64,000 nucleotides of DNA from Scleroderma bovista (Eukaryota > Basidiomycota > Agaricomycetes > Boletales > Sclerodermataceae): assembly GCA_037178675.1 (NCBI GenBank), contig JAYMGJ010000545.1, positions 1 through 64,000 on the forward strand, written 5' to 3'. A program made the translations under genes and the position numbers. Shown here one piece after another: positions 10,772 through 62,697 of the stretch; position 1 is the stretch's first letter, and the number at the start of each line of letters is the position of its first letter. The notes beneath the pieces are model-generated. The model saw only the letters and a program-made list of their open reading frames with translations. It was not told where the DNA came from and did no database searches.

Positions 10772-12014
10772 TGTCAAGACCGGTTCTCCTCGACAATCTT
10801 ACTAGGAGGTCCAGAGGTGCAGGGAACTAATGAGGAGGTAAGTCCAGACACTAGTAGGTGCTAGTTAGTGCAGAGAGTCAAGTCCGGGTCAAACGAACAA
10901 AGTCCAGGAACTAGAGAAGCACAGGGAGTAAGTCTGGGTTTTTGCAGAGTAAGTCTGGACTGTGGGAAAGTGGTCCGGAGTTGAGTGCAGCTTGTCCGGA
11001 GTGAAGGACATCCCAGAGGTGGGATAAGTCCTGAGAGGTCTAGCATCGAGTCTGGGACAGAGGTGGCTTTTGCCCTTGTGCAAGTAGAAGACTTGCTAGG
11101 ATCGGACATAGGACCAAGGGGATGAGATAGGATGGAGGCTGGAGTTGGCTGGAGTTCAGGGATTAGGAGAGCATAGTGGGTAGTACAGAGTGGGGAGTAT
11201 CTTAGTCGAGATTTGATCTAAGGATCTACTAGGCCGGAGTACGGTAGTTTATATAGTAATGAGAACTAGGGTGAGTACATACAATGACAAGTAAACACCT
11301 TAGTTGGGACAAGGGATGGAGCAGAAGCAGACAGGAAAATAAACCAGGTACAAGAAAATAAAGCAGGGACAGGAAAATAAACTGGAGCGGAAGCAGAAAT
11401 GGGGAACTAGGATTACAGGGACGACGGAGCAGATGCAGGGACAAGTAGGTAAAGGGAACTAGGTTGGAAGAGGAAAAGTAAGGGTCAGAGGTGGACTATG
11501 TCCAGGACCGGAGGAAGTGGAACCGGAGGAAGTGCAAGAGCAGAGGGAGTGTACAAGCAGAGGGAGTGTACAAGCAGAGGGAGTGTACAGCTGGAGGAAG
11601 GGCAGAGTAGCTGGAGGAAGGTCCAGAGTTGGACATGGAAATGTCCAAGGCCATTGGTGGACCTGACAGAGGGAGTGGAGCGGAACAGGAGCAGACCTGA
11701 GCCAGAGTTGGATGTACCAGCCAAAGTTGGGCTACATTGCAGACAAGACCAAGGGAGTGGCCAGACTGAAACCGGAGTAGCGACAAGTGGTAGGTACAGG
11801 TTCAACATGGTGGAGTTAGACCGCAGATGTGTCTAGAGGAAGACAGGGGTTAGTCCTAAGGTGGAGATGGACGTAGTGACTGGAGTTGAGCTGGAGTGCA
11901 GCTATGGGGCTGGAGATGGCCGGACTAGATCCAGAGTTGCATCTATGCCTAAGGAGAGGTCAGGCAGGCCAGGGTTAGACCGGAGTTGTGACTGGGAAAA
12001 GTATGGATATGACA
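10772..12014 (-). mobile_element. Family-3 solo LTR inserted in the second KDZ gene
   Basis: TGTCAAGACCGGTTCTCC at the left and GTATGGATATGACA at the right (TG..CA). Flanks AAACC (10767-10771) and AAACA (12015-12019) are a near-perfect 5-bp duplication; removing the LTR and one copy rejoins the KDZ reading frame. Three other copies occur (19585, 45641, 60763) plus a tail at 62658. Promoter-like TATA sequence and similarity to the Family-1 LTR place its sense direction on the minus strand. It contains three 17-bp tandem units at 11542-11593. Confidence 0.85.
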
Positions 12015-19584: not shown

Positions 19585-21666
19585 TGTCAAGACCGGTTCT
19601 CCTCAATGATCTTACTAGGAGGTCCAGAGGTGCAGGGAACTAATGAGGAGGTAAGTCCAGACACTAGTAGGTGCTAGTTAGTGTGGAGAGTCAAGTCTGG
19701 GTCAAACAAACGAAGTCCGGGCACTAGAGAAGCACAGGGAGTAAGTCTGGGTTTTTGTGGAGTAAGTCCAGACCGTGGGAAAGTGGTCCAGAGTTGAGCG
19801 CAGCTTGTCCTGAGCGAAGGACATCCCAGAGGTGGGATAAGTCCTGAAGGTCTAGCATCAAGTCTGGGACAGAGGTGGCTTTTGCCCTTGTGCGAGTAGG
19901 AGACTTGCTAGGATTGGACATAGGACCAAGAGGATGAGATAGGACAAAGGCCGGAGTTGGCCGGATTTCAGGAGTGCAGATGAACAGATGGATTAGGAGA
20001 GCATAGTGGGTAGTACAGAGTGGGGAGTATCTTAGTCAAGATTTGATCTAAGGAAACTACTAGGCCAGAGTATAGTAGTTTATATAGTAACGAGACTAGA
20101 GGTGAGTATATATGGTGACAAGTAAACACATTAGTTGGGACAAGGGATGGAGGAGAAATGGACAGGAAAATAAAGCAGGTACAGGAAAATAAACCGGAGT
20201 GGGAGCAGACACGGGGAACTAGAATTACAGGGACGACAGAGCAGATGCAGGGACAAGTGAAGTAAAGGCTAGGTTGGAAGAGGACAGGTAAGGGTCAGAG
20301 GTGGACTTAACTAATGTTAAGTCCAGAGCAATGCCCAATGACCGGAGGAAGTGCAAGAGCGGAGAGAGTGTACAAGCAGAGGGAGTGTACAAGCAGAGGG
20401 AGTGTACAAGCAGAGGGAGTGTACAGCTGGAGGAAGGGCGGAGTAGCCGGGGGAAGGTCCAGAGTTGGACATGGAAATGTCCAAGGTCATTGGTGGACCT
20501 ATCAGGGGAAGCAGAGCGGAACAGGAGCAGACCTGAGCCAGAGTTGGATGTACCAGCCAGAGTTGGGCTACGTTGCAGACAAGACCAAGGGAGTGGCCGG
20601 ACTGAAACCGGAGTAGTGACTAATGGTAGGAACAGGTCCCACATGGAGGAGTTAGACCACAGATCTGTCTGTAGGAAGACAGGGGTTTAGTCCTAAGGCA
20701 GAGATGGACATAGTGACTGGTGTGAGTCAAAGTGTGGATTTGGGTCAGAGTAATAACCCAAACACAACACCAACAAAGGACTATGAAAAATGTGCGAGTA
20801 GTGGTTTACCTCCACGGTGTCCAGAGAGGATGTGCTGAGGAGGGAGGAAGGGGATCTACACCAACAGGGTGATGCAGATGATGATGCAGGATACTCCTGG
20901 GGTACGGGAGCAATAGATGACGAAGGGGATAGGGGTCTAGACTCTTTCTAAAGCCTAGGAAGTGTCAAAGTGGGGATTGAGGTGACTGGGACTGAAGTAG
21001 CAATACTACACCTAGAGGTTGGTGCAGCAAAGGGGCAAGGGGGCTCCTGATGTCCAGAAGCAATGGGATATGAAGGATAGACAGGCTAGACTCCGCTTGA
21101 GCCTAGAGAAATACTTGGACTTGAATAGATTGAATAAAACTTGAATATCAGAGTCTTTAGACCTTCACTGAAGCCTACAAGACTCAAAGAGCTGAGGGGA
21201 TACTGACTGAGAGAGTCTGAGAGAGGGATAATTTCATGCAATTTGGTCTCTCCTCACTGGGCTGAGCCCAGGGGTTTAAATACATGGGGGGGCACAGCAT
21301 TAAAGTACAAAAAGAGAAGGGAGTAAGCAGAATTTGTCAAGGATTGGTAAGGGATTGGTAAGAGCTTTGTAAGGGGTTTGTAAGCGATCAGTAAGCAAGG
21401 GATAAGCAGGAATGAGTAAGCATAGGAAGCATGAATAAGCTGCTGAGTAAAGGAATGAGTAAGCTGCATGACAAGATTGATTGGTAAGGGAGTGAGTCAT
21501 CAGCTGAGTAATATACCAAAAATGCGAAAGGGATAGAGTAATACTGATGACAAGAGAGCATCAGTAAGCAAGGGATGAGTCACTGCACAGCAGAAGGAGT
21601 CATTGATGCACAGCCTAAGAAGTTTGATGGGGGGCTGTGTACCATCAGGAATTTGATGGGACAACA

Positions 21667-36720: not shown

Positions 36721-37357
36721 TGTTACGACCATGTCCAACTCCGGATCATATCCGGTTACTCCGGTCACATCGCAGTCCTACAGCTCAACTCCGGTTGTTC
36801 TCAGTTACTCTGGTCAATGGTCGCGCAGATAACCTTCCGCTAACTACGACCCTTGGTCTAGCCCGCATACAGTCTTTACCACACTTGCCCATCTACCCTG
36901 CCTTGACGTGAGTTCTCCATGAACTCGTTATATCTCATACCTTGTAGTATTTTCACCGGACCTGTTTTATTTTCATCGGACCTGACTTTATTTTCGTCGG
37001 ACCTGGTCTATCCCTTACTCCGGTCGTCCTTTGTCCGCCATTAGGCTGTTTACTTGTCACCGTATATACTCGTCCCTAGTTTGCACTTAGTATAAGTACT
37101 CTGTAGATTATCCTGTACTCCTCAGTCTGAAATCAACTATAGTCACTACTCCTGTCCCTGTCTCTGTCTCCATCTCCGTCATCGTCACCTTGACTGGAAC
37201 CTACGCAAGGGATCAACGCACTTTGTCCTTGTCGTTGAATCCAAGTGGTCACCAACTCTGGCCAGACTATCCCTTGTCCAGCCCTCTGCCCTCCTCCTTC
37301 GTCCGCCTTCGTCCGGACTTGACCAGACCCCCTACCAGAGTAGACCTGGACTTGACA
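36721..37357 (+). repeat. Gypsy-1 5' LTR
   Basis: TGTTACGACCATGTCC to GACTTGACA, 637 bp. Two TATA-like boxes (TATATACTC near 37064 and TATAAGT at 37091-37097), then AGTCTGAAAT at 37124-37133. Confidence 0.92.
37124..37133 (+). promoter_or_regulatory. Putative transcript 5' end / self-primer
   Basis: AGTCTGAAAT lies 33 bases downstream of TATAAGT, where transcription should start, and is the exact reverse complement of ATTTCAGACT at 37360-37369. In Tf1 the first bases of the RNA fold onto the primer-binding site to prime reverse transcription; the same arrangement is inferred here. Confidence 0.6.
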
Positions 37358-37359
37358 GT

Positions 37360-37369
37360 ATTTCAGACT
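37360..37369 (+). promoter_or_regulatory. Putative primer-binding site, self-primed
   Basis: ATTTCAGACT, two bases after the 5' LTR. It does not start with TGG as a site for a tRNA 3' end would, but pairs over 10 bases with the LTR sequence at 37124-37133. Conserved at 50721-50730 in the second element. Confidence 0.6.
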
Positions 37370-37427
37370 CACACTTGTGTGGGTTCACTGTTTCCATACC
37401 TCATACGCAAACTATTCTCCATCTCTT

Positions 37428-38396
37428 ATGACTATGACTACGCGCTCTCGCGCTCATACCACTGCAGCACTTGCTGAGGAAGCAGGTGCAGTAGACGACC
37501 TCCATCTCTCTGCCGCCCAACAAGCCCTGTCTAACCGCAGGCAACCTCTGGCTTCCGTTAGCCAATTCTGGAGCTTTACAGCTCGCAACCCAGCAGCGTC
37601 TTTGACTCCGCGTCGAGATGCTGCGTCCCAGAGCCTTCGTGGTTCTGTGGACTTTGGTCACCATGAATCCGTTTCTGGTGATCAATTCCCCTACCGTCGC
37701 GACCCCACTCTGGACCGTCGCGAACCTGCCCGTCACCAGTGGTTTGGCCCTGAGGACGGACCCAGAGCTGATCTGGATGACCCCGGAGATGGCGACAACA
37801 ATGACGACAATGACAATGACGACTTCGTTGATGCAATGGACGAGCTAGACCCTGGTCTAGCTGTTTTCCAAAATTTAGCAATCGCTGTCAATCGCCTCTC
37901 CCGCTCCTCCCGCCGGACCAATGACGCCTCTTCCTCCCGTGCCAAAGTCCATGAACCGGACACCTTCGACAGTACAGACCCAAAAAAGCTCAGGACCTTC
38001 TTGGTCCAGTGTGAGCTCTGCTTCCAGGACCGTGCCAAAGTGTTCCGCCTAGATAGGGCTAAGGTAACATTTGCCCAGTCCTATCTCAAAGGTATGACGT
38101 TGGAGTGGTTCGAACCGGACCTCCTCAACTCCGGTGATCTGGCTGACCGCCCACTTTGGATGGACAGTTGGGTCCATTTCGTCGCTGAACTCCAGAGTAC
38201 CTTTGGTCCTCACGACCCCATTGCTGATGCTGAACATCAGCTCGAGCATCTCCGGATGAAGGATGCTCACCGCGTTACGCGGTATATAGTAGACTTCAAC
38301 CGACTCGCCTCACAGGTCCAGGACTACGGGGATGGCGCGCTCCGCCGCCTGTTTTACTCTGGTCTCCCAGATCGTCTCAAGGATGAAATTGCTTGA
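37428..38396 (+). pseudogene. Gypsy-1 gag, N-terminal part ending at a nonsense codon
   Basis: I choose ATG 37428 (MTMTTRSRAHTTA), conserved at 50788 in the second element; an upstream ATG at 37377 is not. About 322 codons: a disordered N-terminus, an acidic linker (DDNDNDDFVDAMDELD), then a capsid-like core with LRTFLVQCELCFQD, WFEPDLLNSGD, FVAELQSTFGPHDP and RVTRYIVDFNRLASQV. The frame ends at TGA 38394-38396 where the second element has CGA. Gag forms the particle that carries the RNA. The remaining gag is cut by the solo LTR at 38468. Confidence 0.85.
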
Positions 38397-38467
38397 GTCG
38401 GGAAACCCCTGACTCTGCATGGGTTGAGGGCTCTTTGCCAAGAGATCAACGCACACTATTGGGAGTG

Positions 38468-39098
38468 TGTCAAGTCCGGGTCTACTCCGGTAGGAAGTCC
38501 GGTCAAGTCCGGATGAAAACAGATGAGGGCAGAGGTCAGAGGTTTGGGCAGAGGTTAGCCCGGGCCGGAGTTGCGACCGATTGGATTCAACGACAAGGAC
38601 AACGAGTGTTGATCCCTTGCGTAGGTTCCGGTCAGGTGGAGATGGAGACGGAGACAGACAAGGGGACAGGAGTAGTAACTTAGATGATTTCAGACTGAGG
38701 TATACAAGGTAAACTAGAGGGTACTTATACTAAGTAGAAACTAGGGTCGAGTACATACGGTGACAAGTAAACAACCTAATAGCGGACAAGGGACGACCGG
38801 AGTTAGGACTAGGTCAGGTCCGGTGAAAATAAAGTCAGGACCGGGTAAAATAAATCAGGTCCAGTGAAAAAGCTACAAGGTATAGGATATATCGAGTTCA
38901 CGGAGAACTCACGTCAAGGCAGGGTAGACGGCGAGGTGTAGTAAGAGCGAATGGAGTATAGACCAAGGGTCGTAGTTAGCGGAAGGTTATCTGCGCGACC
39001 GTTGACCGGAGTAACTGAGAACGACCGGAGTTGAGCTGTAGGCCTGCGATGTGACCGGAGTAACCAGATATGGTCTGGAATTGGACATGGTCGTAACA
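38468..39098 (-). mobile_element. Family-1 solo LTR inside Gypsy-1 gag
   Basis: Reverse-oriented TGTCAAGTCCGG..CATGGTCGTAACA, 631 bp, with perfect 5-bp duplication GAGTG (38463-38467 and 39099-39103). The second element shows the unoccupied site GGGAGCGCAAAG at about 51825. A member of the same family therefore jumped into Gypsy-1 and later collapsed to a solo LTR. Confidence 0.92.
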
Positions 39099-39103
39099 GA
39101 GTG

Positions 39104-42100
39104 CAAAGACGAGATCTCTTGCACGACGAAGAGTCAGCCCACCTTGTCCACAACCAAGTCCTCCAACTCCGGAGGCAACTCATCCAACTCCGGTCAGGAG
39201 AAATCCAAGACTGGAAACTCCTCCAGCTCTGCCAACCCCTCTGGCTCATCTAAAATGACCAGCAACCAGTCCTCCTCCGGTTCCAGACCGGACTTAACCA
39301 ACAAGCTTGGTAAGGATGGGAAGCTGACTGCTGACGAGCGCAAAAGGCGCCTGGACAATAACCTCTGCATGTTCTGCAGAGGCACCGGTCATTTCGCGGA
39401 CAACTGTCCAAAGAAGACCAAAAAGGCCAAGGCTCGTGCTGCGGCCATCTCTGCTGAGTCCGGTAAGACGGACTCCAACTTGGGTGCCAACTCCGAGTCA
39501 AAAAAAAGAGTAAGCAGCTCCCGGCCCTCCACACAACCGGCGAGCTGCATTGACTCCGGAAGTGCACCCAAGGAGGCCCGCCTCAACGTGTCCACTCTCT
39601 TAGATCCTAATTCCCTTATGCCTCATGTTCTCCTTTTGTCTTACGATTTACCAGAACTTCGTGTGCTTGTGGACTCCGGTTCCACACACTGTTTTGTAGA
39701 TACCCAATATGCTCTCGGACACTCTCTCTCCACTTACTCCGTTCCCCCAATTGTACTCCAGCTCTTTGACGGTACCTCGAATTTTGTAATTACTCAAGCC
39801 GTCGATCTATCAGTGAAATTTCCCGCATCTGGTGATGTCACCCCTATGACCTTCTACCTCACTCCGTTAGACTCTGAATGCTCGATTGTCCTTGGACATA
39901 ACTGGCTCACCCGCTACAATCTGTTGATTGACTGGGTACTGAGCAGTTTAACTTTCCGGACCCCTGCACCAAGTTTGCTAGCGCCCCCGTTGACCCCCTC
40001 TCCGGTTCAGTCCGGTAACCCTGTCTCCGGCCTCTCTGGCCAATCTGACCCCGGCCTCACGCCATCTGTTGACACTCCGGTTTGCACCCCTCCGCACATC
40101 TCTCTGATAAATGCAGCCGCATTCGTGCGTGCGTGCAAATTAGAGGGATCCACCAAATACCAACTTCAGCTGCGTCCTTCTGACACAGCAAGAGCTCGTT
40201 CTTCCTCCGCCTCTACTCCGCCGGACTTGGACATTGTCCCTCCGGAGTATCGCGATTATGCGGATGTGTTCAGCAAGGCAAAGGCCTCTGAACTTCCCCC
40301 ACATCGCGACTACGGCTTGAAGATCGACCTCGAAGAAGGTACCTCCCCTCCTCTGGGAACTCTCTACTCACTGTCTCCGGTTGAGCTCTCCGCTCTCCGG
40401 ACTTTCATTGACGAGAATCTTAATACAAGTTTCATCCATCCTACCGCCTCCTCCCACACTGCTCCGGTCCTCTTTGTAAAAAAGAAGGACGGCTCAGTCC
40501 GCCTCTGCGTTGACTTCCGAGGCCTAAACAAAATCACTAAAAAGGATCGCTACCCGCTCCCCCTAATCTCTGACCTATTAGACTCTCCCAGCCATGCTAA
40601 GATCTATTCAAAGATCGACCTCCGGCACGCGTACCATCTAGTCCGGATTGCTCCGGGCGATGAATGGAAGACCACCTTCCGTATGCGCTATGGGTCTTAC
40701 GAGTGGTTAGTAATGCCCTTTGGCCTCACTAACACCCCTGCAGCATTCCAGCGCTTTGTCAACACGATCTTTGCTGACATGCTGGATGTCTGCGTCGTCG
40801 TGTACCTCGACGACATCCTCATCTACTCCGAGGATATGGAGTCCCACCAGCAGCACGTCCGGGAAGTTCTCCGCCGACTCCGGTTACATGGCCTCTTCGC
40901 CAAACCGGAGAAATGTGAGTTCCACTCGGACTCGGTAGAGTACCTTGGCTATCGCCTCTCTCCGGACGGTTTAACAATGTCTCCGGACAAGATCCAAACC
41001 ATCTCCGACTGGCCTGAACCTCGAAAGGTGAAGGACATCCAGTCCTTCCTGGGCTTTGCCAATTTCTACCGCCGGTTCATATTCAACTACTCTGACATTG
41101 TGGTCCCTCTTACCCGGCTCACCCGGAAAGACGCTCCTTGGAACTTCTCTGAGGACTGTCGATGTTCCTTCAACGCTCTCAAGCATGCCTTCACCACTGC
41201 GCCCATCCTCACCCATTTCATTCCGGATACCCCTATCATCGTGGAAACTGACGCCTCCGACTACGCTGTCGCTGGTATCTTGTCTATTACTTGCGCCGAC
41301 GGAGAGATTCGTCCGGTCGCATACTACTCCCGGACCTTGACTGCTCCAGAGTTGAACTATGACACCCACGATAAAGAACTCCTTGCCATCTTCGAGGCAT
41401 TCCGGAACTGGTGTCACTACCTTGAAGGCTCTGCCTCTCCTATAGACGTTGTCATGGACCACAAGAATCTCGAGTACTTCTCAACTTCAAAAGTACTCTC
41501 CTGCCGGCAAGCCCGGTGGTCTGAGTTTTTATCACAGTTTAATCTTGTCATTCGCTTCCGCCCTGGTAAGCTCGGTGCCAAGCCTGACGCTCTCACTAGA
41601 CGATGGGACGTCTACCCCAAAGAGGGGGATAGTGGCTACGCCCGGGTTAACCCCCAAAACCTTAGGCCGGTGTTCACTCAAGAACAACTCTCTAACTCTC
41701 TTCGCGCTACTTACCTAGAGTTTCCAGTTCTCCATGCAGCCGCAATCATGGACGTGGAAACACTCCATAGCGACATCCTGTCCGCACTACCCTCTGATCC
41801 CATTGCCCAGATCCACCTCGCAGATCCACCGGACTCTCGCTGGTCCACCAACGAGGCTGGATTCCTTCGACTAGATGGTTGTATATACGTACCGGACTTG
41901 GACGACCTCCGTCTCCAGGTTCTCCGGTATCGACACGATCACCCACTCGCTGGTCACTTTGGGCAAAACCGGACTCTAGAACTAATCCGGCGTGAATATA
42001 CTTGGCCCGGTCTCAGGACCTTCGTCAAAGACTATGTCCGGTCCTGTACCTCCTGCACAAGAGCTAAGACACCATGCCATAGGCCCTACGGGTTGCTGAA

Positions 42101-43223
42101 ACAGCTCCCTGTACTGGAGAAGCCTTGGAACTCCATCTCAATGGACTTCATAGAGCAACTCCCTTCATCTACTGGCTTTACCGCCATCCTGGTCGTGGTA
42201 GACAGGCTTTCTAAACAAGCCATTTTCATCCCTACTCATGACACCATCACTAGCCCGGAGCTTGCAAAACTCTTCCTGCTCCATGTATTCTCCAAGCACG
42301 GTGTTCCCGCCCACGTCACCTCAGATCGCGGTACAGAGTTTGTCTCTCACTTCTTCCGGTCACTCGGAAAGGCCCTCGACATGCACCTCCACTTCACCTC
42401 CGGTTACCACCCGGAGGGCGATGGCCAGACAGAGCGGTCTAACCAGACACTGGAACAGTACCTCCGGATCTACTGCAACTACCAGCAGGACAACTGGGCA
42501 GACTTACTCCCACTGGCGGAGTTCGCATACAACAATGCACCTAGTGCTACCACCGGAGTCTCTCCGTTCTTTGCTAACAAGGGCTACCACCCTAACATCT
42601 CTGTCTACCCAGAACATGACATGACTTCAGCTCGGGCTCGTGACTACGCAGTCGACCTTGAGTTGCTGCATCAATACCTTCGAGAAGAAATGGCCAACGC
42701 GCAACTTGGCTACCAAGGTCCGGCTGATGCCAAACATACTCCGGCACCGGACTTCAAAGTAGGCGATCAAGTATACGTGAAAGCCAAATACTTCCAGTCT
42801 ACTCGACCATCCAAAAAGCTATCAGAAAAGAATCTTGGGCCCTACACTATCATAGCACAAGTAGGCTCTCTCTCTTTTATGCTACGCCTTCCAGATTCCA
42901 TGCGCGCCGTTCACCCCGTCTTCCACGTCTCCCAACTCGAACTGGCCATACCCAACACTATACCGGACCGGATACAGCCTCCTCCACCACCAGTCGAGAT
43001 AGATGGTGAACCGGAGTTCGAGATCTCTGAGATCCTCGACTCCAAGGTTGACCGTCGACGAAAATTGTGCAAACTGCTGTACTTGGTATGTTGGTCCGGT
43101 TACGAGGGAACTGACGAAGAAACCTCTTGGCTACTCGCCACTGAGCTAGGCAACGCTACGGAATTACTCGAAGACTACCATGTCTGGTACCCGGACAAAC
43201 CCGGACCACTCGCGTCCATGTAG
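39104..43223 (+). CDS. Gypsy-1 gag C-terminus and pol (PR-RT-RH-IN-chromodomain)
   Basis: The open frame continues from gag after the solo LTR. Zinc knuckle CMFCRGTGHFADNC (C-X2-C-X4-H-X4-C, 39366-39407); an eight-A run (39500-39507) that leaves gag and pol in one frame here; aspartic protease VDSGSTHCFVD (about 39670); RT with FVKKKDGSVRLCVDFRGLNK and YLDDILIYS (YLDD 40803-40814); RNase H with ETDASDYAVAG and YDTHDKELLAI; integrase with H-H-C-C (about 41937-42060) and D-D-E (SMDFIEQL, SDRGTEF, GDGQTERSN); GPY motif (about 42840); chromodomain ending in YLVCWSGYEGTDEETSW (43010-43190). No stop inside. The chromodomain likely steers integration to heterochromatin. Confidence 0.92.
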
Positions 43224-43375
43224 TAATACTCTCGTCTCCGTTTCTCTCTTATCTGTCTCTCCTTCTCTGTTTCATTTTGTCTGGTAATATCACTCACTAA
43301 ACTCAGGTCACTTTTCTTTATAAACAAAAAGTAAAACTAATTTACATTCTATTTACAAAGTCCAGACCGGACCAC

Positions 43376-43949
43376 TTACTCCGGCACAGCGCCGCCAGGG
43401 TTCTCTTGCTCCTCTTGGAGCCCCTGGACCTCCTGTTTGACCTCCTCCGGGTCAACCTCCAGCTCGCTATCCTCTGACTCCTCGTCTTCGTCCCAGGGCG
43501 CCGTGAAGAATTGGCACTCCTCGAGAAAGGTCTCGAGGCCGGCCATCAGCCGCTCGTTCCCTTTGGCCACAGAGCGGGTGGCATCCGCTACCCGGCGCAT
43601 CTGTCCAGTCATCTCTTCCACCGCTCCAGTCAGCCTGTCCAGCCGCTCTAGGAACGGTCCAGGGTCGAACCCGGACCATTGCCCAGACGGCCCCAGTACC
43701 TCGACAATGTCGTCGTCATTGTCGACCACCTTCGCAACCGTCTTCTTCTTTTTCCGCTTCTCCCCTCCTCGCGGCGACGTTGCGACCTCCTTCACCTTGC
43801 CCTTCCCTTTGTCCACTACCGGACCCGGACCTCCCACCTCCGGCCACTCGCACCGCTCCTTGAGCCCGGCGCACTTCATGCACACGCGTTGCTTGGGCTT
43901 TTCAGGGTCCCGTTCGCACTTGGCCTTGTGCTTGGCACAACAAACGCAC
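43376..43949 (-). CDS. Antisense gene of Gypsy-1, exon 2 (Zn2Cys6-like half)
   Basis: Starts at the acceptor after GGCAG (intron 43950-43998, 49 bp) and ends at TAA 43378-43376. With exon 1 the spliced ORF is 1002 nt (333 codons plus stop). The first residues form CVCCAKHKAKC, then 11 residues, then CMKCAGLKERCEW: the C-X2-C-X6-C pattern twice, the layout of fungal Gal4-type zinc clusters. A basic block GEKRKKKK follows (nuclear-signal-like), then an amphipathic region (LDRLTGAVEEMTGQMRRV) and a very acidic tail (WDEDEESEDSELEVDPEE). It probably acts in the nucleus on DNA or chromatin; this is inference. Two sister copies at 56109 and 59640. Confidence 0.75.
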
Positions 43950-43998
43950 CTGCCAGGAAATTAATGAAAAATCATAAAAGAAGATAAAGACTACTTAC
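43950..43998 (-). other. Intron of the antisense gene
   Basis: GTAAGTAG..CTGGCAG, 49 bp. The equivalents in the sister copies are 50 bp with the same ends, and in all three copies the total exon length is a multiple of three only if it is removed. Splicing places the first Cys codon directly after the junction. Confidence 0.8.
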
Positions 43999-44426
43999 TG
44001 GACTTCCTCACTCCGGTCACTACTCGGACCTGCCTCCGGCTCCTCCCTCATCCTCTTCTTTGACGCCTCCTGCGCCAGTGCCTTCTGCCTCGTGGCAACC
44101 TCTGCAGCCCTCCGCTGCACCTCCGCCTGGTCCTTCTCCGCCTGCTCACGCACTTGGCACTCCGCCTCCTCCCTTGCCCTACGCTCTGCCTCCTCGCGAG
44201 CTCTTGCCTCTGCCTCTTCGCGCGCTCGCCTCTCCGCCTCTTCCTGGCGTTGTTTCTCCTCCCTCTTGATCTGCTTGCGTCGACGCCTCTCCTTCGTCTT
44301 GGCATCGAGGACGGCCGCCTCGTCTTTGCTACCGGACTGGAGCTCCGGTGTTGATGCCTTGGTCCAGTCCTTGGACTCGACCGCAGAGGGGACAGTGGGG
44401 GTGGTGGACTTGGCAGTGTCAGACAT
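43999..44426 (-). CDS. Antisense gene of Gypsy-1, exon 1 (coiled coil)
   Basis: ATG 44426-44424 (MSDTAKSTTPTVPS), conserved as MSNTAK and MSATAK in the sisters. After a Ser/Thr/Pro start and LQSGSKDEAAVLDAKTKERR comes a long charged helix of repeated AEARAREEAERRAREE-type heptads, then KRMREEPEAGPS before the donor at 43998. A TATAAA on the minus strand (44483-44478) lies 52 bases upstream of the ATG in all three copies. The length differs between copies by in-frame changes in the helix repeats (428, 392 and 413 nt). Likely a dimerising or oligomerising arm. Confidence 0.75.
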
Positions 44427-44477
44427 ATTCAAAAATCAAAGGCAGGGAACTGGGGGTAAAGCAAAACCGGTCTGATC

Positions 44478-44483
44478 TTTATA
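44478..44483 (-). promoter_or_regulatory. TATA box of the antisense gene
   Basis: TATAAA on the minus strand in GGATCTATAAAGATC, 52 bases before the ATG. The same word sits at 57179-57184 and 60731-60736 at identical distance, supporting a promoter independent of the LTR. Confidence 0.6.
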
Positions 44484-44591
44484 GATCCAAGATTCGTACT
44501 CAGACAAAACACTCTGGACTCTGCATTGTTCTAGGCGACCACACTGCAGCCTCATTGGGGCCTCATGGGTTCGGCCCTAAAGGGGGGATAC

Positions 44592-45228
44592 TGTTACGAC
44601 CATGTCCAACTCCGGATCATATCCGGTTACTCCGGTCACATCGCAGTCCTACAGCTCAACTCCGGTCGTTCTCAGTTACTCTGGTCAACGGTCACGCAGA
44701 TAACCTTCCGCTAACTACGACCCTTGGTCTAGCCCGCATACAGTCTTTACCACACTTGCCCGTCTACCCTGCCTTGACGTGAGTTCTCCGTGAACTCATT
44801 ATATCTCATACCTTGTAGTATTTTCACCGGACCTGTTTTATTTTCATCAGACCTGACTTTATTTTCGTCAGACCTGGTCTATCCCTTACTCCGGTCGTCC
44901 TTTGTCTGCCATTAGGCTGTTTACTTGTCACCGTATATACTCGTCCCTAGTTTGCACTTAGTATAAGTACTCTGTAGATTATCCTGTACTCCTCAGTCTG
45001 AAATCAACTATAGTCACTACTCCTGTCCCTGTCTCTGTCTCTGTCTCCGTCATCATCACCTTGACCGGAACCTACGCAAGGGATCAATGCACTTTGTCCT
45101 TGTCGTTGAATCCAAGCGGTCACCAACTCCGGCCGGACTATCCCTTGTCCAGCCCTCTGCCCTCCTCCTTCGTCTGCCTTCGTCCGGACTTGACCGGACC
45201 CCCTACCGGGGTAGACCCGGACTTGACA
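44592..45228 (+). repeat. Gypsy-1 3' LTR
   Basis: 637 bp, same ends as the 5' LTR, preceded by the purine tract GGGGGGATAC. Differences from the 5' LTR seen by eye are mostly C/T or G/A. Confidence 0.92.
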
Positions 45229-45548
45229 GACCCCACCACCACCAATTTTGACAATGACAATGCTAATGACCAGACCCCACCACTGCTGGCAACAATGACA
45301 ATGACCTCATCACCACTGACGGTGATGGCAACAGTGACAATGTAATGAACCAACTTTTTATCTTATCTAATCTGCGGTTAGATAGTGTTTATCTTATCTT
45401 AGTGTACGGCCATATCTTATCTACCTAGTCTAGACCAGTGCCTCATGCTGCACACACTGCCACCCTTGATGTCATTCTGCATAGCCTTAGCTCCACTATG
45501 ACATCACTAACATAGCATTGTACAGTATGTAGCCTCATGGATAGCCTC
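45229..45548 (+). other. Tail of the Copia gag remnant and spacer
   Basis: GACCCCACCACCACC continues the sequence left of Gypsy-1; an open stretch to about 45345 is rich in Asn/Asp/Thr codons. The rest holds no gene. A TCTTATCT motif recurs four times at 45358-45420. Confidence 0.35.
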
Positions 45549-45640
45549 TGTCAAGTCCAGGTCTACTCCAGTAGGGGGTCCGGTCAAGTCCGGATGAAAG
45601 CAGATGAAAGGGGAGGTCAGAGGTTTGAGCAGAGGTTAGC

Positions 45641-46869
45641 TGTCAAGACCGGTTCTCCTCAACGATCTTACTAGGAGGTCCAGAGGTGCAGGGAACTAAT
45701 GAGGAGGTAAGTCCAGAGACTAGTAGGTGCTAGTTAGTGCGGAGAGTCAAGTCCGGGTCAAACGAACGAAGTCTGGGCACTAGAGAAGCACAGGGAGTAA
45801 GTCCGGGTTTTTGCAGAGTAAGTCTGGACTGCGGGAAAGTGGTCTGGAGTTGAGCGCAGCTTGTCTGGAGCGAAGGACATCCCAGAGGTGGGATAAGTCC
45901 TGAGAGGTCTAGCATTGAGTCTGGGACAGAGGTGGCTTTTGCCCTCGTGCAAGTAGGAGACTTGCTAGGATCGGACATAGGACCAAGGGGATGAGATAGG
46001 ACGGAGGCCGGAGTTGGCCGGAGTTCAGGAGTTCAGATGAACAGATGGATTAGGAGAGCATAGTGGGTAGTACAGAGTGGGGAGTATCTTAGTCGAGATT
46101 TGATCTAAGAAAACTACTAGGCTGGAGTATAGTAGTTTATATAGTAAATGAGAACTAGGGTGAGTATATACGGTGACAAGTAAACACCTTAGTCAGGACA
46201 AGGGATGGAGCAGAAACGGACAGGAAAATAAACCGGAGCGGGAGCAGACACGGGGAACTAGAGATACAGGGATGACAGAGGAAAAGCAGGGACAGTGAAG
46301 TAAAGGGAACTAGGTCGGAAGAGGACAGGTAAGGGTTGGAGGTGGACTTAACTAATGTTAAGTCTGGAGCGATGTCCAGGACTGGAGGAAGTGGAACTGG
46401 AGGAAGTGGGACCGGAGGAAGTGCAAGAGTGGAGGGAGTGTACGACTGGAGGAAGGGCAGAGTAGCCAGAGGAAGGCCCGGAGTTGGACATGGAAATGTC
46501 CAAGGCCATTGGTGGACCTGACAGAGGGAGTGGAGCAGAACAGGAGCAAACCTGAGCCAGAGTTGGATGTACCAGCCGGAGTTGGGCTAGGTCGCAGACC
46601 AGACAAAGGGAGTGGCCAGACTGAAACCGGAGTAGCAACTAATGGTAGGTACAGGTCCGACATGGAGGAGTTAGACTATGGATCTGTCTAGAGGGAGACA
46701 GGGGTTAGTCCTGAGGTGGAGATGGACGTAGTGACTGGAGTTGAGCTGGAGTGCAGCTATGGGGCTGGAGATGGCTGGACTAGATCCGGACTTGTGTCTA
46801 TGCCTAAGGAGAGGTCAGGCGGGCCAGGGTTAGACCAGAGTTGCGACTGGGAAAAGTATGGATATGACA
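45641..46869 (-). mobile_element. Family-3 solo LTR (third copy)
   Basis: TGTCAAGACCGGTTCTCC..TATGGATATGACA with perfect 5-bp duplication TTAGC (45636-45640 and 46870-46874). The unoccupied site is seen in the Family-1 LTR at about 38560. It has only one copy of the 17-bp unit. Confidence 0.92.
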
Positions 46870-47027
46870 TTAGCCTGGGTCAGAGTTGCGACCATTTGGA
46901 TTCAACAACAAGGATGGCGAGCATTGATCCCTTGCGTAGGTTCCAGTCAGACAGAGATGGAGACAGAGACAGACAGAGGAACAGGGGTAGTGACTTAGAT
47001 GATTTCAGACTGAGGAGTACAGGATAA

Positions 47028-50075: not shown

Positions 50076-50718
50076 TGTTACGACCATGCCCAACTCCGGG
50101 TCTTATCCGGTCACTCCGGTCGCATCGCAGCTCTACAGCTCAACTCCGGTCGCTCAACACTTACTCCGGTCACGCTTGCACAGATATGCCTCTGTTAAGT
50201 ACAACCCTTGGACTATCCTCTGTTTGCTCGTTACCACACCTCGCCGTTTACCCTGCCTTGACGTGAGTTCTCCATGAACTCGATATATCCCATGCCTTGT
50301 GTTATTTTCACCGGACCTGATTTATTTTACCCGGACCTGACTTTATTTTCATCGGACCTGACCTAGTACTTTCTCCGGTTGTCCCTTGTCCGCCTTTTAG
50401 GCTGTTTACTTGTCACTGTATATACTCGACCCTAGTTCTTACTTAGTATAAGTACTCTGTAGTTTATCCTGTACTCCTCAGTCTGAAATCAACCATAGTC
50501 TCTACTCCTGATCTTGCCCGTCTCCGTCTCTGTCTCTGTCTCCCCTTCTTGACCGGAACCTACGCAAGGGATCAATGCTCATTGTCCTTAGTCGTTGAAT
50601 CCAAGCGGTCACCAACTCCGGCCAGACTAATCTCTTGTCCAGCCCTCTGCTCTCCTCCTTCGTCCGCTTCTGTCCGGACTTGACCGGACCCCCTACTGGA
50701 GTAGACCCGGACTTGACA
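50076..50718 (+). repeat. 5' LTR of the composite element
   Basis: TGTTACGACCATGCCC..GACTTGACA, 643 bp. AGTCTGAAAT at 50480-50489 and its complement ATTTCAGACT at 50721-50730 repeat the self-priming pair seen in Gypsy-1. Confidence 0.9.
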
Positions 50719-50787
50719 GTATTTCAGACTCACACTTGTGTGGGTTCACTGTTCCATACCCCGTACGCAAACTAGCTTCTATTTCTT

Positions 50788-56108: not shown

Positions 56109-56685
56109 TCACTCCGGCACACCGCTGTCAGGATTCTCCTGCTCCTCTTGGAGCCCCTGTACCTCCTGTTCGACCTCCTCCGGGTCGACCTCCGCCTCAC
56201 TATCCTCCGATTCCTCATCTTCGTCCCAAGGCGCCGTGAAGAAACGGCACTCCTCGAGAAAGGTCTCGAGGCCAGCGCTCAGGCGGTCGTTGGACCGCGA
56301 CACGGATCATGTGGAGTCCGCGATCCGGGCCATCTGCCCGGTCATCGCCTCCACCGCGGCTGTCAGCTGGTCCATCCGCTCCAAGAAAGGCCTGGTGTTG
56401 AAACCGGACCTTGACCCGGATGGGCCTGCCACCTCCACAACCTCGTCGTTGTCGTTGACGACCTTCGCCAGCTTCTTCTTCTTCCGCTTTTCACCGCCTC
56501 GCGGTGACGTCGCCACCTCCTTCTCCTTCGCCTTACCCTTGCCTTTGTCTACTACCGGACCTGGTTCCCCCACCTCCGGCCACTCACACTTCTCCTTTAA
56601 TCCGGCGCACTTCATGCACGCCCTCTGCTTGGGTTTCTCCGGGTCTCGCTCACACACTGCGTGGTGCTTCGCGCAGCGCACGCAT
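56109..56685 (-). pseudogene. Antisense gene copy 2, exon 2
   Basis: Acceptor at 56687-56686, stop TGA 56111-56109. Encodes CVRCAKHHAVC, 11 residues, CMKCAGLKEKCEW, then KRKKKK, a helix with LTAAVEAMTGQMARIAD, and the acidic tail. One in-frame TGA at 56304-56306 breaks it; copy 3 has CAA there. Apart from this the spliced ORF (969 nt) is in frame. Confidence 0.75.
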
Positions 56686-56735
56686 CTGCGTAACGGTTAG
56701 TAACGAAGATGAAAGAAAGAATTAAAGTTACTTAC

Positions 56736-57292: not shown

Positions 57293-57931
57293 TGTTACGA
57301 CCATGTCCAACTCCAGACCATATCCGGTTACTCCGGTCACATCGCAGGCCTACAGCTCAACTCCGGTCGTTCTCAGTTACTCCGGTCAACGGTCGCGCAG
57401 ATAACCTTCCGCTAACTACGACCCTTGGTCTATACTCCATTCGCTCTTACTACACCTCGCCGTCTACCCTGCCTTGACGTGAGTTCTCCGTGAACTCGAT
57501 ATATCCTATACCTTGTAGCTTTTTCACTGGACCTGATTTATTTTACCCGGTCCTGACTTTATTTTCACCGGACCTGACCTAGTCCTAACTCCGGTCATCC
57601 CTTGTCCGCTATTAGGTTGTTTACTTGTCACCGTATGTACTCGACCCTAGTTCTACTTAGTATAAGTACCCTCTAGTTTACCTTGTACACCTCAGTCTGA
57701 AATCAACTTAGTCACTACTCCAGTCTCTGTCTGTCTCCGTCTCCGTCTCCGTCCCTATCACCTTGACTGGAACCTACGCAAGGGATCAACGCACGTCGTC
57801 CTTGTCGTTGAATCCAAGCGGTCACCAACTCCGGCCGGACTAATCCCTCGTCCAGCCCTCTGCCCTCTCCCTTCATCCGTGCTCGTCCGGACTTGACCGG
57901 ACCTCCTACCGGAGTAGACCCGGACTTGACA
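57293..57931 (+). repeat. Inner LTR of the composite element
   Basis: 639 bp, preceded by the purine tract AAAAGGGGGATAC, ending GACTTGACA. Its left part (CATGTCCAACTCCAGACC) differs from the outer LTR pair, showing it belongs to another copy. Confidence 0.88.
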
Positions 57932-59492
57932 GGTGTTCACTCAAGAACAGCTCTCTAACTCTCTTCGCGCTACTTATTTAGAGTTTCCGGTCCTCCGTGC
58001 AGTCGCAATCATGGACGTGGAAACACTCCATAGCGACATCCTCTCCGCACTACCCTCTGATCCCATTGCCCAGGCCCACCTCACAGATCCACCGGACTCT
58101 CGCTGGTCCACAGACGAGGCTGGATTCCTTTGACTAGACGGTCGCATATACGTACCGGACTTGGATGATCTCCGTCTCCGGGTGCTCCGGTACCGACACG
58201 ATCACCCACTCGCTGGTCACTTTGGGCAAAACCGGACCCTAGAGCTAATCCGGCGTGAGTATACTTGGCCCGGTCTCCGGACCTTCGTCAAGGATTACGT
58301 CCGGTCATGTACCTCTTGTGCACGAGCTAAGACACCGCGCCACAGACCCTATGGGCTGCTGAAACAGCTCCCCGTACCGGAGAAACCTTGGAACTCCATC
58401 TCAATGGATTTCATCGAGCAACTCCCTTCATCCACCGGCTTCACAGCCATCCTGGTCGTAGTAGACCGGCTTTCTAAACAAGCCATCTTCATCCCTACTC
58501 ATGACACCATCACTAGCCCGGAGCTCGCAAAACTCTTCTTGCTCCACGTATTCTCCAAGCACGGTGTTCCCACCCATGTCACGTCGGATCGCGGTACAGA
58601 GTTTGTCTCTCACTTCTTCCGGTCACTTGGAAAGGCCCTCAACATGCGCCTCCACTTCACCTCCGGTTACCACCCGGAGGGCGATGGCCAGACAGAGCGG
58701 TCTAACCAGACGCTGGAACAGTACCTCCGGATCTACTGCAACTACCAGCAGGACAACTGGGCGGACTTACTCCCATTGGCGGAGTTTGCATACAACAATG
58801 CACCTAGTGCTACCACCGGAGTCTCTCCGTTCTTCGCTAACAAGGGCTACCACCCTAACATCTCTGTCTACCCAGAACGCGACATGACCTCTGCCAGGGC
58901 TCGTGACTACGCAGTTGACCTTGAGTCGCTGCATCAATACCTTCGAGAAGAAATGGCCCACGCGCAACTTCGCTACCAGGGTCCGGCTGATGCCAAACGT
59001 ACTCCGGCACCGGACTTCAAAGTAGGCGATCAAGTATACGTGAAAGCCAAGTACTTCCGGTCTACTCGACCATCCAAAAAGCTATCGGAAAAGAATCTTG
59101 GGCCCTACACTATCATAGCACAAGTAGGCTCTCTCTCTTTTACGCTACATCTTCCAGATTCCATGCGCGCCGTTCATCCCGTCTTCCACGTCTCCCAACT
59201 CGAACTGGCCACACCCAACACCATACCGGACCGGATACAACCTCCTCCGCCACCGGTCGAAGTAGATGGTGAACCGGAGTTCAAGATCTCTGAGATCCTC
59301 GACTCCAAGGTTGATCGTCGACGCAGATCGTGCAAGCTATTGTACCTGGTGCATTGGTCTGGTTACGAAGGAACTGACGAAGAAACAGAAACATCATGGC
59401 TTCTCGCCACTGAACTTGGCAACGCTACGGAACTCTTAGAAGATTACCATGTCCGGTACGCGGACAAACCCGGACCACTTGCGTCCATGTAG
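57932..59492 (+). pseudogene. 3' half of pol from a second element
   Basis: Starts in mid-pol at GGTGTTCACTCAAGAAC (VFTQEQLSNSL) and continues through integrase to the chromodomain and stop at 59490-59492. A TGA at 58131-58133 replaces the CGA codon of the other copies. Integrase zinc region and catalytic D-D-E are present; a two-codon insertion gives EETETSW in the chromodomain. Not translatable as a normal pol. Confidence 0.88.
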
Positions 59493-59639: not shown

Positions 59640-60216
59640 TCACTCCGGCACACCGCTGTCAGGATTCTCCTGCTCCTCTTGGAGCCCCTGTACCTCCTGT
59701 TCGACCTGCTCTGGGTCGACCTCCGCCTCACTATCCTCTGACTCCTCATCTTCGTCCCAAGGCGCTGTGAAGAAACGGCACTCCTCGAGAAAGGTCTCGA
59801 GGCCAGAGCTCAGGCGGTCGTTGGACCGCGACACGGATTGTGTGGAGTCCGCGATCCGGGCCATCTGCCCGGTCATCGCCTCCACCGCGGCTGTCAGCTT
59901 GTCCATCCGCTCCAGGAAGACCCCAGAGTTGAGTCCGGACTTGGAGCCGGACGGACCCGCCACCTCCACTATCTCGTTGTCGTCGATGACGGTCTTCGCC
60001 GTCTTCTTCTTCTTCCGTTTCTCACCGCCTCGCGGTGACGTCGCCGTGCCCTGCTCTTTCACCTTGCCTTTTCCCTTGTCTACTACCGGACCTGGTCCCC
60101 CCACCTCCGGCCACTCACACTTCTCCTTTAATCCGGCGCACTTCATGCACGCCCTCTGCTTGGGTTTCTCCGGGTCTCACTCACACACTGTGCGGTGCTT
60201 CGCGCAACGCACACAT
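59640..60216 (-). pseudogene. Antisense gene copy 3, exon 2
   Basis: Acceptor at 60218-60217, stop TGA 59642-59640. Same zinc-cluster and acidic-tail layout as the sisters. The codon at the splice junction is TGA and a second TGA lies in the zinc linker near 60180, both where copy 2 has CGA. Confidence 0.75.
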
Positions 60217-60266
60217 CTGCGTAACGGTTAGTAACGAAGATGAAAGAAAGAATTGAAGTTGCTTAC

Positions 60267-60679: not shown

Positions 60680-60762
60680 GTTAGGATCACGGAAAGAAAA
60701 CTGGGGGTAACAAGCAAAACCGGTCTGATCTTTATAGATCCATAATTTGTACTCAGACAACA

Positions 60763-61927
60763 TGTCAAAACCGGTTCTCCTCAACGATCTTACTAGGAGG
60801 TCCAGAGGTGCAGGGAACTAATGAGGAGGTAAGTCCAGACACTAGTAGGTGCTAGTTAGTGCGGAGAGTCAAGTCCAGGTCAAACGAACGAAGTCCGGGC
60901 ACTAGAGAAGCACAGGGAGTAAGTCCGGGTTTTTGTGGAGTAAGTCCAGACCGCGGGAAAGTGGTCCGGAGTTGAGCGCAGCTTGTCCGGAGCAAAGGAC
61001 ATCCCAGAGGTGGGATAAGTCCTGAGAGGTCTAGCGTCGAGTCTGGGACAGAGGTGGCTTTTGCCCTCGTGCAAGTAGGAGACTTGCTAGGATCGGACAT
61101 AGGACCAAGGGGACGAGATAGGACGGAGGCCGGAGTTGGCCGGAGTTCAGGAGTTCAGATGAACAGATGGATTTAGGAGAGCATAATGGGTAGTACAGAG
61201 TGGGGAGTATCTTAGTCGAGATTTGATCTAAGGAAACTACTAGGCCGGAGTATAGTAGTTTATATAGTAAATGAGAACTAGGGTGAGTATATACGGTGAC
61301 AAGTAAACACCTTAGTTGGGACAAGGGACAGAGCAGAAACGGACAGGAAAATAAAGCAGGTACAGGAAAATAAACTGGAGCGGGAGCAGACATGGGGAAC
61401 TAAAGATACAGGGACGACGGAGGAAAAGCAGGGACAGTGAAGTAAAGGGAACTAGGTCGGAAGAGGACAGGTAAGGGTTGGAGGTGGACTTAACTAATGT
61501 TAAGTCCGGAGCGATGTCCAGGACTGGAGGAAGGTCCGGAGTTGGACATGGAAATGTCCTAAGCCTTTGGTGGACCTGACAGAGGAAGTGGAGCAGGAGC
61601 AGGAGCAGAACTGAGCCGGAGTTGGATGTACCAGCCGGAGTTGGGCTACGTCGCAGACAAGGCTAAGGGAGTGGCTGGACTGAAACCGGAGTAGCGACTA
61701 GTGGTAGGTACAGGTCCGACACGGAGGAGTTAGACCGCGGACCTGTCTGTAGGAAGACAGGGGTTAGTCCTGAGGCGGAGATGGACATAGTGACCAGAGT
61801 TGAGCTGGAGTGCAGCTATAGGGCTGGAGATGGCCGGACTAGATCCGGAGTTGCATCTATGCCTAAGGAGAGGTCAGGCGGGCCATGGTTAGACCGGAGT
61901 TGCGACTGGAAAAGTATGGATATGACA
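60763..61927 (-). mobile_element. Family-3 solo LTR (fourth copy)
   Basis: TGTCAAAACCGGTTCTCC..TATGGATATGACA, 1165 bp, perfect 5-bp duplication CAACA (60758-60762 and 61928-61932). It sits between the antisense gene and the 3' LTR of the composite; the unoccupied sequence is at about 57205. It lacks the 17-bp tandem units. Confidence 0.92.
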
Positions 61928-62014
61928 CAACACTCCGGTACTCCGCATTGTTCTAAGCGACCACACGACAGCCTCATTGGGGCCTCATGGGTTTGGCCCC
62001 TAAAAGGGGGATAC

Positions 62015-62657
62015 TGTTACGACCATGCCCAACTCCGGGTCTTATCCGGTCACTCCGGTCGCATCGCAGCTCTACAGCTCAACTCCGGTCGCTCAACACT
62101 TACTCCGGTCACGCTCGCGCAGATATGCCTCCGTTAAGTACAACCCTTGGACTATCCTCTGTTCGCTCATTACCACACCTCGCCATTTACCCTGCCTTGA
62201 CGTGAGTTCTCCGTGAACTCGATATATCCCATGCCTTGTGTTATTTTCACCGGACCTGATTTATTTTACCCGGACCTGACTTTATTTTCATCAGACCTGA
62301 CCTAGTACTTTCTCCGGTTGTCCCTTGTCCGCCTTTTAGGCTGTTTACTTGTCACCGTATATACTCGACCCTAGTTCTTACTTAGTATAAGTACTCTGTA
62401 GTTTATCCTGTACTCCTCAGTCTGAAATCAACCATAGTCTCTACTCCTGATCTTGCCCGTCTCCGTCTCTGTCTCTGTCTCCCCTTCTTGACCGGAACCT
62501 ACACAAGGGATCAACGCTCGTTGTCCTTAGTCGTTGAATCCAAGCGGTCACCAACTCCGGCCGGACTAATCTCTTGTCCAGCCCTCTGCTCTCCTCCTTC
62601 GTCCGCTTCTGTCCGGACTTGACCGGACCCCCTACTGGAGTAGACCCGGACTTGACA
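62015..62657 (+). repeat. 3' LTR of the composite element
   Basis: 643 bp, preceded by TAAAAGGGGGATAC, with the same diagnostic variants as 50076-50718. Confidence 0.9.
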
Positions 62658-62697
62658 GTTAGACTGGAGTTGCGACTGGAAAAGTATGGATATGACA
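62658..62697 (-). mobile_element. Tail of a fifth Family-3 LTR
   Basis: GTTAGACTGGAGTTGCGACT to TATGGATATGACA match the right end of the Family-3 copies. The rest of this LTR is missing, so the composite element's outer boundary has been rearranged. Confidence 0.7.

Follow-up and report, generated by a model that had tools for sequence, protein, structure and literature searches.

A spliced antisense gene for a Zn2Cys6-like protein and family-specific CGG words in fungal Ty3/gypsy retrotransposons

Introduction

The VANC proteins of Arabidopsis VANDAL DNA transposons are anti-silencing proteins (PMC5735166, PMC10398659). In that system, a transposon-coded protein is paired with a short family-specific word for which its element is enriched, the word varies between related elements and occurs in tandem repeats, and VANC causes loss of DNA methylation. 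The fungal elements described here share these features of the words, each of the three families with the antisense gene being enriched for a word of its own. They differ in having another protein family, an LTR retrotransposon as carrier and an antisense spliced gene, and their CGG words also fill the pol coding sequence, whereas the words targeted by VANC are mainly non-coding.

Zn2Cys6 proteins typically read CGG triplets (PMC5559640), and for Gsm1 and Rds2 binding to CCGG and CCGGAGTTA, both published Zn2Cys6 sites, is reported (PMC12719309). The antisense protein resembles fungal Zn2Cys6 regulators (Gal4, Leu3, Gsm1/Rds2) in its cysteine spacing, coiled coil, acidic region and CGG words. 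It is unlike them in being encoded antisense in a retrotransposon, in a coiled coil that precedes the cluster, in a family A score below the Pfam cut-off and in words that spread across the whole element.

The HBZ gene of HTLV-1 is an antisense gene near the 3′ LTR whose product is a nuclear regulator, like the fungal gene in position and presumed role, but a bZIP protein of an animal retrovirus. HBZ is mentioned in PMC11963269, one of two papers on the plant elements Retand, Grande and RIRE2, which carry antisense additional ORFs, often with a TRP28 domain (PMC11963269, PMC7264820). These ORFs share with the fungal gene the antisense orientation, the slot between pol and the 3′ LTR and the suspicion of being DNA-binding regulators; TRP28 is not among the Pfam matches listed for the fungal protein, and Retand is not a chromovirus. 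The available text of both papers describes no self-word for the three plant elements, and the latter calls the role of LTR-retrotransposon antisense ORFs unknown even in plants. TET/JBP genes, with a proposed role in relieving methylation silencing, are found in fungal DNA transposons, in an account that speaks of a lack of TET-bearing retrotransposons (PMC12730594); those genes encode enzymes, whereas the fungal antisense protein is a putative sequence-specific binder. The terms 'antisense' and 'zinc' are absent from the main text of a survey of fungal LTR retrotransposons (PMC3248453), and neither an antisense gene for a zinc cluster nor self-words were reported for fungal LTR elements in search listings of the open-licence literature.

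Here we describe such a gene from Scleroderma bovista, together with its splice signals, its slot, the purifying selection acting on it and the family-specific CGG-word enrichment of its element, following up a sequence-only reading of the window, meaning the whole 64,000-nucleotide stretch analysed. We favour, with modest confidence, the reading that the antisense protein would be a self-recognising Zn2Cys6-like trans-regulator of its element.

Results

A two-exon antisense gene lies between pol and the 3′ LTR

The element, of family A, spans about 36721 to 45229 of the window. Its 5′ LTR (36721..37358, + strand) is 96.6% identical to its 3′ LTR (44592..45229, + strand), and its pol frame (39042..43223, + strand) encodes protease, RT, RNase H, integrase and a chromodomain-like end. 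RVT_1, RT_RNaseH, Integrase_H2C2 and rve score above their Pfam cut-offs in that order, and LTRs and pol domain order identify the element as a Ty3/gypsy LTR retrotransposon; the Chromo match (residues 1326-1380) sits at the integrase end, as in chromoviruses, and reaches 21.5 bits against a cut-off of 25.1, which makes the element a candidate chromovirus. This copy is interrupted between gag and pol by a reverse LTR of the same family (38468-39098, 85% identical), which supplies roughly 56 nt at the start of the pol frame.

Between pol and the 3′ LTR, the − strand carries a two-exon gene for a protein of 333 residues (43376..44426), its spliced frame being read from the sequence. The gene runs from an ATG at 44426 to a TAA stop at 43378-43376 and consists, on the − strand, of exon 1 (43999..44426), a 49-nt GT..AG intron (43950..43998, GTAAGT...CTGGCAG) and exon 2 (43376..43949), giving a spliced coding sequence of 1002 nt, that is, 333 codons and the stop. 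Exon 1 encodes a charged coiled coil (residues 45-127, 44046-44294); a six-cysteine cluster (residues 144-176, 43850..43948), the basic block TSPRGGEKRKKKK (residues 200-212, 43742..43780), a second helical segment that the predicted structure models as one long helix (residues 242-288, 43514..43654) and an acidic tail (residues 296-325, 43403..43492) follow on the same strand. The sequence-only reading had proposed this slot, the intron, the TATAAA discussed below and the order of coiled coil, spaced cysteines, basic block and acidic tail in the spliced ORF, and all were confirmed, as was the need for splicing: the unspliced frame meets a stop directly past the donor.

The TATAAA (44478..44483, − strand) stands 52 nt before the ATG and is identical in 45 of 45 aligned copies, two further loci (L044, L082) having given no upstream alignment. 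It is part of a block between the gene and the 3′ LTR (44427..44591, strand not assigned) that also contains a purine tract adjoining the LTR, and because this whole LTR-adjoining block is conserved, conservation of TATAAA alone is no proof of a promoter. In some copies (W56, at about 57150 of the window, and P0052) the frame extends upstream through the block (MSEYEIWIYKDQTG...), so that the conserved TATAAA could be partly coding there.

The gene belongs to the element and is under purifying selection

The antisense gene has 42 matching stretches in the genome by DNA and at least 150 by protein, copy counts of this kind being lower bounds. The window copy was aligned with 37 others. GT..AG is kept in all 38 copies, the intron length drifting between 42 and 54 nt; 24 copies have an open spliced frame and 14 a broken one, and every one of the 24 intact copies keeps all six cysteines.

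Pairwise dN/dS was calculated among the 24 intact copies, leaving out the 14 broken ones, which gave 276 pairs that are not independent because the copies are related. After exclusion of one pair with a dS of 0, the 248 pairs with dS above 0.15 have a median dN/dS of 0.149 (0.07-0.31) and the 27 closer pairs one of 0.39, as post-insertion decay would give. A codon model yielded an omega of 0.201 at a log-likelihood of -5759.1; with omega fixed at 1 it fell to -6002.2, 243 units worse. A dN/dS near 1, which the earlier reading had named as evidence that would speak against it, is therefore rejected, and the antisense ORF is a real gene under purifying selection, at a dN/dS of about 0.15-0.20. 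A chance ORF is ruled out by these ratios, by exon indels that are mostly multiples of three and by an intron that drifts freely. Synonymous differences between copies are fewer at window 43742-44050 (residues about 127-215), around the basic block, the cluster and the intron, where mean pS is 0.11-0.18; the acidic tail has 0.23 and most of the remaining gene 0.33-0.36. A second constraint or exchange between copies may perhaps account for this.

The earlier proposal to look for the gene in related elements was borne out. Antisense exon 2 lies within 1.5 kb downstream of 119 of the 150 pol C-termini listed, at a median gap of 172 bp (range 144-888 in the 119 listed pairs), and families B and C have the gene in this slot as well; none of the matches listed for the 150 pol ends has exon 2 in the opposite orientation. 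The 31 unpaired ends may represent contig ends, true loss or an exon 2 beyond the matches listed. The antisense gene belongs to the element, and its intron is expected to outlast retrotransposition, since the element's genomic RNA has sense polarity.

The cluster resembles Zn2Cys6 domains, with borderline membership

Classical Zn2Cys6 domains have the spacing C-X2-C-X6-C-X5-12-C-X2-C-X6-8-C. With cysteines at residues 144, 147, 154, 166, 169 and 176, the family A cluster reads C-X2-C-X6-C-X11-C-X2-C-X6-C and falls inside this range, and in families B and C X8 or X9 replaces the first X6. The B and C clusters (L096, L099, L097) have a longer first half and C-X2-C-X6-C as second half, the reverse of the usual order of halves in Zn2Cys6 proteins, and the second half in family B has an RSKxK-type basic stretch.

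More relatives match Zn_clus than any other Pfam family, although weakly (nine of 25, best E 0.54, among the matches listed). In the profile search proposed in the sequence-only reading, the window protein scores 7.2 bits for Zn_clus (PF00172), below the cut-off of 21. Family B genes reached 12.3 and 18.8 bits, and one family B copy 20.2, rising to 23.2, above the cut-off, only with neighbours in frame; the family C gene had no Zn_clus match. A search of the genome placed no family A locus among 34 Zn_clus matches, and the genome holds 30 other Zn_clus places above the cut-off. Structure prediction, proposed earlier to see whether the six cysteines can surround two zinc ions in a two-helix fold, gave two low-confidence models (mean pLDDT 71 and 60); a Foldseek search of the first against the PDB, admitting E up to 10, returned only three chains of the Zn2Cys6 protein Leu3, at non-significant E values of 3.4-9.7.

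Other assignments were pursued and set aside. PDB sequence matches to coiled coils, FEN-1, aspartate-tRNA ligase and RbcX had E values of 0.005 or worse, and NCBIfam gave coiled-coil-type matches only, far below cut-off. TRP28 (PF04195) is absent among the Pfam matches listed for the window protein and its relatives, one listing giving 25 of 43 families, and no relatives were found in IMG/VR by a search that may omit the window's own or near genomes. We call the antisense protein Zn2Cys6-like; its membership of Zn2Cys6 is likely but borderline, the family A score lying below the Pfam cut-off. Of the DNA-binding regulator proposed earlier, the real, selected and spliced gene and the Zn2Cys6-like cluster stand, and the Pfam match is weak.

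A CGG-core word fills the family A element

The earlier reading had not noticed a short word that is spread over the entire element, even through its coding sequence, and varies from family to family. In family A it is TCCGG/CCGGA, with 14 occurrences in the 3′ LTR against 1.2 expected from dinucleotide shuffles and nine in the 5′ LTR against 1.1. A 21-bp tandem repeat within the 3′ LTR (44819..44876, + strand) has a unit that holds CCGGA in the 5′ LTR and other copies and is here partly decayed to CAGA. The pol coding sequence carries 63 words, compared with 24 under synonymous-codon shuffling, which preserves protein and codon usage (z 8.6-9.7), and CCGGA is its most enriched 5-mer in this test. 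Trinucleotide shuffles predict 24.9, and against dinucleotide shuffles the two halves of pol hold 34 words versus 4.1 and 29 versus 5.0. Overall, the element carries the word about 13.5 times per kb on both strands, through LTRs and pol, with both orientations in excess and words in all three codon frames. A word read in RNA is disfavoured, since both orientations are in excess, though one weakly so in family C, and fixed dimer spacing showed no clear rule.

The same enrichment is found in all 37 family A loci, the window included (lowest z 3.9), and a second A copy repeats it (CCGGA 58 versus 21 expected); none of 12 copia loci of the same genome exceeds z 1.8 for the A word. A CGG-core word enriched in LTRs would fit the proposed control of the element's own LTR. 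LTR enrichment with its tandem repeat, and a gene that starts beside the 3′ LTR, would suit a classical autoregulator acting only at the LTR and its own promoter, with body words as decoys or tolerated extras; we consider this unlikely, as pol is enriched just as strongly as the LTR, at a cost in synonymous choice. Our preferred reading remains a protein that would recognise its element throughout.

Word density tracks elements along the window. Window 1-10 kb, our only host-side control, holds four words against 6.8 expected from dinucleotide shuffles; 10-20 kb (15 versus 4.1) and 20-30 kb (seven versus 2.8) are enriched, partly because of an old LTR at 28.1 kb and a repeat of ~1.1 kb, which accounts for lesser peaks at 10.9-12.0 and 19.0-20.6 kb. 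This different repeat (10770-11890 and 19585-20725, with relatives near 45640-46870 and 60760-61930) is unlike the element's LTR, pol or antisense gene, yet carries TCCGG words, and may likewise ride on this regulator. Genome-wide, there are 804 instances of the doublet ACTCCGGT-N0-30-ACTCCGG and six of the pattern read backwards, and a single strand of the window has 22 CCGGAGTT. At L095 (G000:C73:31700-33200), about 520-1000, we observed an array of ~30-bp units with ACTCCGGTC; this stretch has no match in the window, and 11 ACTCCGGT lie within the 1.5 kb.

The window has two further family A copies. In one, the LTRs lie at 50076-50719 and 57293-57932, the pol frame runs for 1247 aa from 52194, and exon 2 occupies 56112-56687; the other is partial, its pol running from 57932, its exon 2 occupying 59643-60218 and an LTR lying at 62015-62658. 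Both exon 2 frames contain a stop. The crowding of copies and LTRs in the window, with one LTR even lodged inside another copy, would agree with a protein that tethers new copies to old ones, the words marking safe landing sites. Such integration targeting is highly doubtful in our view: a target copy would gain nothing from being hit, so words would not be expected to accumulate by selection on copies. A regulator acting in trans on the copies themselves is the reading we retain.

Word conservation was compared across 36 family A copies aligned to the window, setting apart 195 cells of other CCGG contexts. Words keep their CG more often than other CpGs in 31 of the 36 copies, with a mean difference of 0.08, the copies behind the Wilcoxon p being related and not independent. 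Decay to TG/CA affects 235 of 1,357 positions in words and 955 of 4,826 at other CpGs (17% versus 20%), while other changes are rarer in words (13/1,357 versus 356/4,826). In the active lineage the words thus appear to be conserved. At 17% and 20%, there is no sign that they are shielded from decay of the methylation type after insertion. The old copies L082, L076 and L080 are strongly CpG-depleted (observed/expected 0.26, 0.45 and 0.55), and this depletion, with CG mostly changing to TG/CA, points to CpG methylation of the elements.

Families B and C have diverged clusters and other words

Four other pol ends were fetched in a search for gypsy elements without the antisense gene. Three of them (L096 and L099, family B; L097, family C) have an antisense coiled-coil/zinc-cluster gene in the same slot, with a diverged cluster and a retained TSPRGGEKRK, the part of the basic block common to families A, B and C. 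The fourth, gypsy D (L098), is 27-36% identical over short stretches and served as a word control only, its pol frame filling most of the stretch. Homology links the antisense genes of the three families (E 6.9e-6 and 5.0e-7), and the pol proteins of these families, in one genome, are 72-77% identical.

TCCGG is not enriched in L096, L097, L098 or L099, and words of their own had been predicted for B and C before looking. The word sample comprised one pol frame for B, two for C (C86 and C') and two frames plus the family loci for A. Family B pol has 93 CCGA against 48 expected and 37 CCCGA/TCGGG against 11.9, and family C pol 56 CGGAG against 25 and 45 GCGGA against 22; a relative of C (L102), with an antisense protein 63% identical, has 33 CGGAG against 13.5. 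In a cross table, each family is enriched for its own distinctive words and at or below expectation for those of the others, except that CTCCG, as a part of CTCCGG, is raised in A too. For the C words, the excess of the minor orientation is weak (z 1.8-2.3).

Total CGG is as expected in every family (found/expected: A 182/178, B 139/141, C 141/150), and the table of NCGGN shows unchanged numbers with redistributed flanks in each of the three: CCGGA 63/23 and CCGGT 34/16 in A, TCGGG 37/12 and TCGGT 30/14 in B, GCGGA 45/23 in C. Where amino acids agree between families, the A word is kept at three of 47 sites in B and two of 41 in C, versus 25% for other CG-holding 5-mers. B words are kept at one of 38 in A and five of 34 in C, and C words at five of 27 in A and two of 28 in B, both versus 19-26%; two of these six comparisons are weak. 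Word and zinc cluster differ together in three families, a small sample.

These data bear on whether the words are unrelated to the protein and come from a host factor or from a bias of mutation or context peculiar to each family. Four copia frames and gypsy D have top 5-mers at z 3.7-5.1 with no shared CGG theme, and at k=6 a non-CGG word, GTGCAC, is enriched in two copia frames (z 7.5 and 6.6, on seven and six occurrences), which, along with the A word in a different repeat that has no antisense-protein match, lends this account something. We nevertheless judge it rather improbable: within one genome, elements with pol 72-77% identical have different words, all of them CGG words at an unchanged CGG total, the dinucleotide, trinucleotide and synonymous nulls agree, and A words occupy all codon frames. 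Least probable, to our mind, is a copy-number repressor that silences its own family or rivals, a role for which plant antisense ORFs offer a precedent, being discussed as regulators of retrotransposition, antisense RNA included, in the accessible text of PMC7264820. Copies would then be selected to lose sites, and B and C, which are without the A word, would be unreachable as rivals through it.

Discussion

The reading we prefer, a self-recognising trans-regulator, can be set out as a chain of steps. The antisense gene would encode a Zn2Cys6-like DNA-binding protein, with coiled coil, presumed zinc-binding cluster, basic block and acidic tail, and is probably transcribed from a promoter in the stretch that separates it from the 3′ LTR. 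This protein may bind a short CGG-core word with family-specific flanks (C-CGG-A/T in A); most simply, the protein of each family would read the word of that family. It would act in trans on all copies, most likely keeping them transcribable, either as an activator or as an anti-silencing coat, in logic like VANC of VANDAL transposons. Coding sequence is expected to become loaded with words only if bound copies fare better, which favours activation or anti-silencing over repression or targeting. Counting against the proposal are Zn_clus scores below the cut-off in A, the lack of a match in C, the low confidence of the models and the three families as a small sample, with B represented by one pol frame. 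The weak minor orientation in C, the GTGCAC enrichment of two copia frames, the lack of any sign of shielding and, unlike VANC targets, the words in coding sequence count against it too.

In its widest form, to which we give an even chance on the sequence comparisons, a clade of fungal LTR retrotransposons would have recoded its own genome, synonymous pol sites included, into a dense site array for an antisense-encoded Zn2Cys6 protein. A change in the cluster would entail a new CGG flank element-wide, making a self/non-self barcode with a reader of its own that would serve to escape silencing.

One slot, one protein kind and three family-specific words would make up a lock-and-key system that bears on how retrotransposons of methylating fungi escape silencing. 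If the match between protein and word holds, these families would offer zinc-cluster proteins whose specificity has been switched in nature, and a case in which selection has turned coding sequence into an array of protein-binding sites.
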